This document shows, piece after piece, positions 52,537 to 55,212 of a DNA stretch of 64,000 nt; position 1 is the stretch's first letter, and each line of letters begins with the position of its first letter. The notes under the pieces are model-generated. The model saw only the letters and a list, made by a program, of their open reading frames with translations, had not been told where the DNA came from and made no database searches. The stretch is from Alphaproteobacteria bacterium (GTDB taxonomy: Bacteria > Pseudomonadota > Alphaproteobacteria > Rhodobacterales > Rhodobacteraceae). A program made the translations under genes and the position numbers. Where the stretch lies: NCBI GenBank assembly GCA_030427405.1, contig JAUHXK010000009.1, positions 124,001-188,000 on the forward strand, written 5' to 3'.

Positions 52537-54084
52537 CTATCTGGCGCGAAACAGGCCGCCCAGAATTCCGCGCACGATCCGCCGACCGGTGGTGCCTTTC
52601 AGTTCCTTGATGACGGCCTGGCTCATGGCGCTGGCAAAACTGTCGGTCTTCCGCGTTTTTCGCGCAGTGGATCGCCCGACCCTGCTGCCGCTGTACCTGC
52701 GCGCCGAAGCGAATTCACGCTGCATCGGCGATTGCTGTTCCACGACCTCTTCTGCCTCGGCGGCCTCGGCCTCGCGCGCGGCCTGTTCGGCCCTTGCCTG
52801 CAAGATCTCATAAGCCGATTTGCGGTCAACGGCAGTGTCATATTTTCCAGCCATCGGCGAGCGGACCATAATCGCCGTGCGTTCGGCATCGGTAATCGGC
52901 CCCAATTGCGATGCGGGCGGGCGGATCAAGGTGCGTTCAACCACTCCGGGCACGCCCTTTTTCTGCAGCATCGAGGTGACGGCCTCACCGACGCCGACCT
53001 CGCGAATGGCGGCCTCGGTATCGAATTCGGGGTTCTCACGATAGGTTTCCGCAGCCAGCCGCAAATTCTTGCGATCCCGTGCCGTGAAGGCACGCAGCGC
53101 GTGCTGGACCCTGTTCCCCAATTGCCCAAGGATGTCTTCGGGAATATCCGCCGGGTTCTGGGTGATGAAATACACACCCACCCCCTTGGACCGGATCAGC
53201 CGGGCAACCTGTTCCACCTTATCCACCAACACCTTGGGCGCGTCTTCGAACAACAGATGCGCCTCGTCAAAAAAGAAAACCAGCTTTGGTTTCTCGGGGT
53301 CACCAACCTCGGGCAGTTCTTCGAACAATTCGCTCAGCAGCCACAGAAGGAAGGTCGCGTACAGTCGCGGCGCCCCCATCAGTTTGTCCGACGCAAGGAT
53401 GTTGACCATCCCCTGCCCAGCCGCATCGGTGCGCATCAGGTCGGACAGGGCCAGCGCCGGTTCGCCAAACAAGCTGTTGCCGCCCTGATTTTCCAGGACC
53501 AGCAACCTGCGTTGAATGGCCCCGATCGACGCGGTGGACACGTTCCCATAGCGCAGAGACAGTTTCGATCTGTTTTCACCGATCCAGACCAGCAGGGATT
53601 GCAGGTCCTTGAGGTCCAAAAGCGGCAAGCCCTCTTCGTCCGCAACACGGAACGCGATGTTCAGGATGCCTTCCTGGGCTTCGCTCAGTTCAAGAAGGCG
53701 CGACAACAGTAAAGGGCCCATCTCGGTCACAGTTGTTCTTACCGGGTGACCCTGGTTGCCGAACAGGTCCCAAAACGTCACCGGACAGGCCCCGTAGGCA
53801 TAGTCGGACAGGCCGATTCGTCCGGCCCGTTCCATAAAGGCCGAATGCAGCTTGTGGGTATCGCTGCCCGACAGTGCAAGCCCGGACAAGTCGCCTTTGA
53901 CATCGGACAGGAACACCGGCACGCCGGCCTTGGAAAACCCTTCTGCCAGGATCTGCAACGTCACGGTCTTACCGGTTCCGGTCGCCCCTGCGATCAATCC
54001 GTGGCGGTTTGCGTATTTCAGCGCAAGCTCTTCGGGTTGCCCATACTCGGCACCTGCACCGCCAATAAAAATGCTGTCACTCAT
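52537..54084 (-). CDS. HerA-like / DUF853 (YjgR-type) ATPase
   Basis: [90 protein letters not shown]. Confidence 0.93.
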
Positions 54085-54159
54085 GTATTTTCTGTCCCGA
54101 TTAGCACCGATCTGAGGCCAGCATACAAACTTAACCTTTGACTGCGATAGTCAATTTAC

Positions 54160-54234
54160 CGCTTCCGCGTCGCTGCGTGGGGGTGGTTTACTTCCTCCCT
54201 GTCGACTGGCCGTGCCCTCGGGCACGGCTTTTTT
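54160..54234 (+). ncRNA. Candidate sRNA 1 (3' end defined by orphan terminator; 5' end approximate)
   Basis: Terminator GCCGTGCCC-TC-GGGCACGGC-TTTTTT at 54209-54234 with no plus-strand CDS within ~1.7 kb upstream; contains CUUCCUCCC (anti-SD-like). Confidence 0.45.
54209..54234 (+). terminator. Orphan rho-independent terminator
   Basis: 9-bp GC-rich stem + T6. Confidence 0.85.
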
Positions 54235-54330
54235 GCCGGATAATTGGAAACCGCCTGAATTTCCCCCGCGCGAACATTAAATTTTGACGTTAGCAGTTGA
54301 CCGACGTGATGCCCTTTCGTAACGTCTGCC

Positions 54331-54401
54331 CATAAATAAGTCGGCCAGTCCGACGGGGAGAAACATTACCGAAAGGGAGCCGTTCGTTCGGCTCCCTTTT
54401 T
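54331..54401 (+). ncRNA. Candidate sRNA 2 (5' end approximate)
   Basis: Possible -35 TTGACC (54297-54302), 17-bp spacer, weak -10 TAACGT (54320-54325); 3' terminator AGGGAGCCG-TTCGTT-CGGCTCCCT-TTTT; internal hairpin GTCGG-CCAGT-CCGAC. Confidence 0.45.
54374..54401 (+). terminator. Orphan rho-independent terminator
   Basis: AGGGAGCCG-TTCGTT-CGGCTCCCT-TTTT. Confidence 0.85.
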
Positions 54402-54555
54402 CCTTTTCTGAAGATGGGGTTGTGGCGGACTTTTTTCCCATCTTTTGTCGGCGGAAAATCGTATGAATGCGGTGCCGAATACAGCTTTGACCCTGACAGC
54501 GCGGGAACAGGGTGTTAGACCGGGGCAAAAGTCCGATCAGAACTATGAGGCACTT

Positions 54556-55161
54556 ATGATCAAGAAACTGACCCCTATCACCCTTGCGGCGGCCCTGCTC
54601 TGCGGCACCGCGGGGTTTGCGCAGGAAACCGAAGCCCAGCCGGAAGCAGAGGCGCAGCAATCCGGAGAGGTTCCGTCTGACCTGGACCTGGGTGAATCCG
54701 GCCCCCGCGTTGGTGAGCAATACATCAAGGAAACATCAGGCGACTGGGAGGTTTCGTGCATCAAGACCGAAACCGGCGAAGACCCCTGCGCCATGGTCCA
54801 GATCCTCAACGGCCAGCAAGGCGAGCCGATTGCCGAGATCACCGTGGGCAAGCTGCCCGAAGGTGGCGCGGCGGTGGCCTGGGCCAATGTGATCGTCCCG
54901 CTTGAAACCCTGTTGCAGGCGCAGCTTGCGGTGTCGATCGACGGCGCGCCGCGCAAGCTTTACAATTATCATCACTGCGTTCCGATCGGCTGCGTGGCAC
55001 AGCTTGGCCTGACGCAAGGCGATATTGACGCAATGAAGGGCGGCTCAAAGGCGGTTCTGTCGCTGGTGCCCGCACGCCTGCCCGACCAGATTTTGAACAT
55101 GGACATGTCGCTCAGTGGCTTTACCGCCGGGTTTGACGGTCTGGGCGTAAACGTCAACTAA
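54556..55161 (+). CDS. Invasion-associated locus B (IalB)-family exported protein
   Basis: Signal peptide; YIKETSGDWEVSCIKTETGEDPCAMVQILNGQQGEPIAEITV; YHHCVPIGCVAQLGLT. Confidence 0.88.
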   Translation: MIKKLTPITLAAALLCGTAGFAQETEAQPEAEAQQSGEVPSDLDLGESGPRVGEQYIKETSGDWEVSCIKTETGEDPCAMVQILNGQQGEPIAEITVGKLPEGGAAVAWANVIVPLETLLQAQLAVSIDGAPRKLYNYHHCVPIGCVAQLGLTQGDIDAMKGGSKAVLSLVPARLPDQILNMDMSLSGFTAGFDGLGVNVN

Positions 55162-55183: not shown

Positions 55184-55212
55184 GCCGCCGCGCACCCCGC
55201 GGCGGCTTTTTT
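55184..55212 (+). terminator. Rho-independent terminator after ialB
   Basis: GCCGCCGCG-cacc-CCGCGGCGGC-TTTTTT. Confidence 0.88.

Follow-up and report, generated by a model that had tools for sequence, protein, structure and literature searches.

A conserved tandem pair of small RNA genes between herA and ialB in Rhodobacteraceae, one of which probably encodes a sponge of SorX/SorY-type small RNAs

The window (the whole stretch of 64,000 nucleotides that was analysed) contains a 471-bp gap between a gene for a HerA_C-type ATPase (herA; 52537 to 54084, minus strand; Pfam PF05872, E = 5e-223) and an ialB-like gene (54556 to 55161, plus strand; Pfam PF06776, E = 6.6e-33). Two plus-strand intrinsic terminators lie in this gap. 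Both were listed in the original prediction, which read them as the ends of a pair of unannotated small RNA (sRNA) genes upstream of ialB, and both were recovered by our terminator scan; no plus-strand gene precedes them, as had been remarked, herA being the minus-strand, divergent left neighbour. We call the two sRNA genes RNA 1 and RNA 2. The order herA-RNA region-ialB, with recognisable RNA regions, is found in 24 of the 24 sampled congeners. A herA homologue, which marks the conserved locus, borders the RNA pair in most of the loci fetched, and the right neighbour ialB is syntenic in the genus and the family. In Rhodobacter sphaeroides 2.4.1, the RNA pair is located on the minus strand at about 1,426.5-1,426.8 kb of chromosome 1, in the segments at about 1,426,527-1,426,599 and 1,426,673-1,426,758. 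On the ialB side, a conserved CTGACA...TTAGAC-like block is found 3' of RNA 2 (54493 to 54520), which is possibly ialB's own promoter, and a strong terminator with nine G-C pairs (55184 to 55206) follows immediately 3' of ialB, which thus looks monocistronic.

Between herA and RNA 1 lies a putative divergent promoter/operator block (GCATACAAAcTTAACCTTTGacTGCGATAGT; 54121 to 54151), which is kept in the genus and is recognisable across the family, with the pattern CATACAAA-N-TTAACC-N4-TGC(C/G)A..GT. It looks like overlapping divergent promoters around a central TTAACC (a CtrA-like half-site or that of another regulator), with a candidate extended -10 element of RNA 1 on the plus strand (TGC-GATAGT, 54143 to 54151) and a candidate TATGCT-type -10 element of herA on the minus strand. 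The 17-bp palindrome TTGACTGCGATAGTCAA (54138 to 54154), to which attention had been drawn near the predicted 5' region of the first sRNA, is real, but its palindromy is lost even within the genus (for example in L003), and we rejected it as an operator since it is not conserved.

A scan of 5 kb turned up 10 sites resembling terminators where 6.0 +/- 2.5 were expected, so that the number of terminators is not striking by itself. The two terminators of the gap stand above chance because their stems are conserved while the flanking DNA varies. The RNA 1 terminator (54208 to 54234, plus strand; stem 54208 to 54228, T-run 54229 to 54234) retains its stem in 23 of the 24 sampled congeners, being degraded in L025, and shows compensatory, two-sided changes in 6 of its 9 pairs in the family-wide alignment. 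The RNA 2 terminator (54371 to 54402, plus strand; stem 54371 to 54400, followed by a T-rich tail) retains its stem in all 24 congeners and shows such changes in 12 of its 12 pairs. Alignment of relatives, a check suggested with the original prediction, thus shows stems that are kept in the genus and covary across the family. This conservation and covariation support the pair of sRNA genes, the existence of which we regard as near certain: each is conserved and structured and has its own terminator, and the two show strong complementarity to each other. They may already have been detected, without a name, in some earlier RNA-seq work. Their transcription, any reliance on Hfq, which way the regulation runs and the physiological or inducing signal are inferred in what follows.

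RNA 1 (54158 to 54234, plus strand) is predicted to be a SorX/alphaR8-like sRNA of about 77 nt, made of a 5' hairpin (54158 to 54187), a single-stranded linker and the terminator. Its predicted fold (-39.3 kcal/mol, z = -4.7) consists of two hairpins with UUUACUUCCUCCCUGUCGACU unpaired between them, and in homologues in the family, found in about 80 of the 89 fetched loci, a 5' hairpin is likewise predicted to precede the motif (mean z = -3.1 over 58 genera, mononucleotide shuffles). The anti-Shine-Dalgarno-like targeting segment CUCCCUGUCGACUGGCC (54195 to 54211, plus strand) is near-invariant in the genus and the family and forms the predicted duplex with RNA 2. A 5' hairpin, a single-stranded CUCCCUGU and a terminator hairpin, all present in the predicted fold, make up the architecture of SorX, and SorX (RF02784) is also the best Rfam match of RNA 1 (23.4 bits, E = 0.0024), below the gathering score of 46.6 bits. 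At gathering thresholds, the Rfam search recommended with the original prediction returned only tRNAs in the window, the SorX match being sub-threshold. Among the RNA 1 homologues scanned in other genera, scores reach 41.2 bits for SorX and 40.8 bits for the alphaR8 family suhB/MmgR (RF00519); the gathering score of the latter, 41, is attained nowhere in the genome of the window, nor at the best homologous locus (40.8 bits). The alphaR8 10-mer UUUCCUCCCU reads CUUCCUCCCU in RNA 1 of the window (9 of 10 positions), and some congeners carry UUUCCUCCCU itself. RNA 1 lies outside the 3' UTR of any OmpR-type regulator gene, the OmpR-linked SorX being a separate locus (L061). Thus, its fold, its sub-threshold match to SorX and the matches of its homologues to SorX and alphaR8 lead us to predict that RNA 1 works like a SorX/alphaR8 RNA, without filing it formally in either family, as it fits neither by curated thresholds. 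The best explanation is that it joins SorX and SorY as a third RNA of the SorX/alphaR8-type group. In two genomes (G057 and G048; loci L328 and L330, respectively), a different RNA-like element, which has a terminator and carries the CUCCC motif twice (AACTTCTCCCTTCATTGAGCCTCCC), lies upstream of herA, where it replaces RNA 1, and RNA 2 is absent; canonical alphaR8 matches are found elsewhere in these genomes.

The second gene, RNA 2 (54332 to 54402, plus strand), is delineated by a covariance model (R1), by its fold and by covariation; it is a predicted sponge sRNA of about 71 nt, in agreement with the size of about 70 nt expected originally, for which we propose the name anti-Sor RNA. Its promoter, TTGACC-N17-TAACGT (54297 to 54325, plus strand), was found as first described, with TTGACC at 54297 to 54302 and TAACGT at 54320 to 54325, and it is conserved family-wide as TTGAC(C/G)-N16-18-TA(A/G)CGT, with an invariant TTGAC and, in almost every one of 89 family loci, TA(A/G)-T. 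The position of the promoter places the start of RNA 2 at about 54332. Promoter and terminator of the predicted independent transcript are backed by sequence and conservation. From 5' to 3', RNA 2 consists of a 5-bp hairpin (GUCGG-CCAGU-CCGAC, 54340 to 54354, plus strand; paired in 100% of cells, with two-sided changes in two pairs), GGGGAGA, an A/U-rich linker and the terminator (fold z = -3.6). Across 25 congeners, 29 of its first 30 nt are invariant, as is the core GGCCAGUCCGACGGGGAG (54343 to 54360, plus strand), the reverse complement of the targeting segment of SorX, SorY and RNA 1, and the flanks drift. In 100 aligned matches, which were fitted to the model, standard pairs occupy 98.3% of pair cells and two-sided changes occur in 14 of 17 pairs, a result equalled by none of 500 shuffles, and shifting the pairs by one column cuts pairing to 58-64%.

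At the model threshold, R1 detected RNA 2 in 135 of 160 Rhodobacteraceae genomes; it was also found in 58 of 61 genomes of an order sample and in 54 of 58 genomes of one other genus. In a class-wide sample of 116 genomes, no match from outside the family rose above background, which lay at about 29 bits or below. In L316, L317, L314, L318 and L326, RNA 2 variants in which additional sequence separates the core from the terminator escape the covariance model. As several of the negatives are such diverged copies with longer linkers, these counts are lower bounds. In nearly every locus fetched, RNA 2 is flanked by herA and ialB, and RNA 1 usually precedes it. Among 4227 Rfam families, none matched RNA 2 in the window segment beyond chance level. 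RNA 2 represents a new RNA family. As an sRNA sponge, its probable function, it would fill a role already known, but with a new target group and in a new tandem arrangement with one target. We dropped an argument from co-occurrence with SorX: all seven SorX-negative genomes also lack an RNA 2 match, but six of the seven do not even have a herA homologue, so that the co-occurrence reflects lineage divergence.

One link had been missed in the original prediction, namely that the two RNAs are not independent, as the core of RNA 2 complements the targeting sequence of RNA 1. The near-invariant core, GGCCAGUCCGAC(G/A)GGGAG, has CUCCC(C/U)GUCGGACUGGCC as its reverse complement, and the RNA 2-RNA 1 duplex has 17 pairs and one bulge. 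In most genera (50 of 62), RNA 1 reads CUCCCUGUC-A-GACUGGCC, with one A.C mismatch against RNA 2; in Ruegeria it reads CUCCCUGUC-GACUGGCC, with one bulge. The genome of the window also carries a true SorX (71.5 bits), whose neighbour is an OmpR-type regulator gene, an arrangement also published for R. sphaeroides, together with a SorY-like RNA (58.4 bits against SorY), which adjoins a LysR-type gene. Both read CUCCCUGUUGGACU and form 14 uninterrupted pairs with RNA 2, two of them G-U, and the exact seed CCTCCCTGTNRGACT occurs in the 3.62-Mb genome in SorX and SorY only. RNA 2 is thus complementary to the targeting core shared by its sibling sRNAs of the same genome. When the 5' half of RNA 2 was compared with 6394 windows of the 64 kb, no partner except its own antisense was stronger than RNA 1. 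Predicted net binding energies to RNA 2 are -19.4 kcal/mol for SorX, -17.8 for SorY and -12.2 for RNA 1, and shuffled RNA 2 sequences bound equally well in 0 of 300, 0 of 300 and 7 of 300 cases, respectively. An additional SorX arrangement was seen in L059 (G062), where two tandem copies about 220 bp apart (1308 and 1531, minus strand) both have the CCTCCCTGTTGGACC seed.

Over 62 genera, 1094 of the 1116 RNA 1-RNA 2 pair cells (98%) are standard. Pairing within genomes beats re-pairing between them (7 of 2000 shuffles as good), and duplex energy likewise favours same-genome pairs (p = 5e-5), phylogeny being left in for both comparisons. Two-sided changes amount to 2 in 1116 cells, and when 18 variant pairs were inspected singly, four clearly compensated (L120, L143, L324, and L096) and most of the others only kept or weakened pairing. 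Covariation between RNA 1 and RNA 2 is therefore real but modest. In L326, GUCC of RNA 2 has become GUUC, opposite GAAC in its RNA 1. Part of the conservation of the RNA 2 core is due to its overlap with the cis hairpin, and SorX-RNA 2 pairing is not testable by covariation because SorX seeds hardly vary. Two observations bear on the choice of partner. At the site of the mismatch with RNA 1, the invariant C of RNA 2 has a G to pair with in both SorX and SorY, which suggests that these two are at least as important partners; moreover, RNA 2 is kept in some genomes in which RNA 1 is lost or degraded (for example L317, L319, and L025, a congener with an intact RNA 2), so that RNA 1 is not its only partner. 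The mismatch or bulge lies in the middle of the duplex between 54195 to 54211 and 54343 to 54360, and SorX and SorY pair without it; it perhaps serves to avoid cleavage by RNase III, or to rank the partners.

We conclude that RNA 2 is probably an sRNA sponge directed against SorX, SorY and RNA 1, encoded beside one of its target sRNAs. Under this model, the locus would encode two trans-acting small RNAs, RNA 2 being expressed from its own sigma-70-like promoter. RNA 1 would repress target mRNAs through its anti-Shine-Dalgarno-like single-stranded UUCCUCCCUGUcgACU, located between the two hairpins. The core of RNA 2 would mimic a Shine-Dalgarno-containing target and act as a decoy: its GGGGAG would imitate a Shine-Dalgarno sequence, with which the CCUCCC segment of these sRNAs naturally pairs, and pairing would continue through the hairpin loop. 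Contact would be made first by the CCAGU loop and the GGGGAG tail, after which the 5-bp hairpin would open, likely on Hfq. By pairing with the targeting segment common to the three sRNAs, RNA 2 would sequester or destabilise them, and we infer that it may lower their level or activity in vivo in an Hfq-dependent manner. We also think it likely, on balance, that RNA 2 is an undescribed sponge that acts throughout the Rhodobacteraceae as a global antagonist of SorX/SorY/alphaR8-type sRNAs, and that in roseobacters and Rhodobacter it sets the switch between photooxidative-stress or metabolic repression and derepression.

Other readings of the locus were considered. RNA 2 could itself target mRNAs, its CCAGU loop and GGGGAG pairing with C/U-rich mRNA sites and its complementarity to SorX and SorY being secondary. 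Most conserved sRNAs target mRNAs, the loop and tail of RNA 2 are exposed in the predicted fold, and seeds as short as these could find many targets. However, the complementary 15-mer pattern is matched at no other genomic site within one mismatch, and GGGGAG is Shine-Dalgarno-like, not anti-Shine-Dalgarno-like, so that we consider a primary role in mRNA targeting unlikely. The sponge CrfA, too, was first mistaken for an mRNA-pairing sRNA (PMC12559287). A mechanism in cis (attenuation or antitermination), with the RNA 1 and RNA 2 regions as parts of an ialB leader whose two complementary segments pair on the same transcript, would suit two segments that lie on the same strand, about 130 nt apart and just 5' of ialB, in conserved synteny. 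It is nevertheless disfavoured, and we hold it to be improbable, as RNA 2's own conserved promoter sits between the segments, both terminators are strong and covarying, RNA 2 persists where RNA 1 has been lost, and its complementarity is better to SorX and SorY, located elsewhere in the genome.

The original prediction had regarded RNA 1 as a cuckoo/CcsR-type sRNA and RNA 2 as unrelated to it. The motif on which this view was based, CUUCCUCCC, is indeed present at 54191 to 54199, and it is C/U-rich and anti-Shine-Dalgarno-like. Yet no CcsR-type Rfam family matches, the best matches being SorX, SorY and, for homologues, suhB/MmgR; RNA 1 is present in a single copy at the locus, with no plus-strand protein gene upstream from which it could be processed; and UUCCUCCCUGU lies in the single-stranded linker between hairpins, as in SorX, SorY and alphaR8 RNAs. 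As this view also leaves the complementarity between RNA 1 and RNA 2 unexplained, we give it very little credence. We deem it just as implausible that what has been conserved is a set of DNA-level elements, namely promoters and operators of herA and ialB, instead of RNAs. One probable example of such an element is the TTAACC block that separates herA from RNA 1, but the compensatory changes, seen in the RNA 2 hairpin and in both terminators, the T-runs and the correctly placed promoters are signatures of RNA.

If the sponge reading of RNA 2 is true, its presence throughout the family would make CrfA-like control of CCUCCC-type sRNAs a general feature of Alphaproteobacteria, and not a peculiarity of Caulobacter. 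Few stress sRNAs of Rhodobacter have been characterised; they include SorX and SorY, the latter with takP as a target. Rhodobacteraceae dominate many marine bacterial communities. We found no antagonist of SorX or SorY in the literature searched, a scope outside which lay the primary papers on SorX and SorY and supplementary sRNA lists. The sponge reading can be tested directly in R. sphaeroides 2.4.1 and Ruegeria pomeroyi, and a covariance model is ready for RNA 2 as a new RNA family.

Among known systems, SorX (RF02784), an sRNA of R. sphaeroides that targets a polyamine transporter mRNA, resembles RNA 1 in its 5' hairpin, single-stranded CCUCCCUGU..GACU and GGCC-type terminator. RNA 1 differs from it in reading UUCCUCCCUGUC(A)GACU where SorX has ACCUCCCUGUUGGACU, in its sub-gathering score and in its location outside a 3' UTR. 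Similarly, RNA 1 resembles alphaR8 RNAs (MmgR/suhB RF00519, SisA-D of Caulobacter) in having a core in the linker between hairpin and terminator, which in the window agrees with theirs at 9 of 10 positions, but RNA 1 of the window has no RF00519 match and is not located beside an N-formylglutamate amidohydrolase gene. With CcsR1-4 (cuckoo RNAs), RNA 1 has in common a C/U-rich anti-Shine-Dalgarno-like motif; however, the CcsR motif is CCUCCUCCC (as described in the original prediction), and the four homologous CcsR copies are co-transcribed with ccaF1, none of which applies to this locus. For RNA 2, the closest system is CrfA of Caulobacter crescentus, reported in 2025 as a sponge of the alphaR8 sRNAs SisA-D, which acts via their UUUCCUCCCU core, on the evidence of RIL-seq, structure probing and compensatory mutations (PMC12559287). 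RNA 2 is likened to CrfA by the mechanism described and not by sequence comparison: in CrfA, and by prediction in RNA 2, a G/A-rich element pairs with the CCUCCC core common to sibling sRNAs. CrfA pairs through its second stem-loop, whereas RNA 2 (about 71 nt) would do so through its first hairpin and the adjacent GGGGAG; in addition, RNA 2 is encoded beside one of the sibling sRNAs, and its predicted pairing reaches UUGGACU, which is specific to SorX and SorY.
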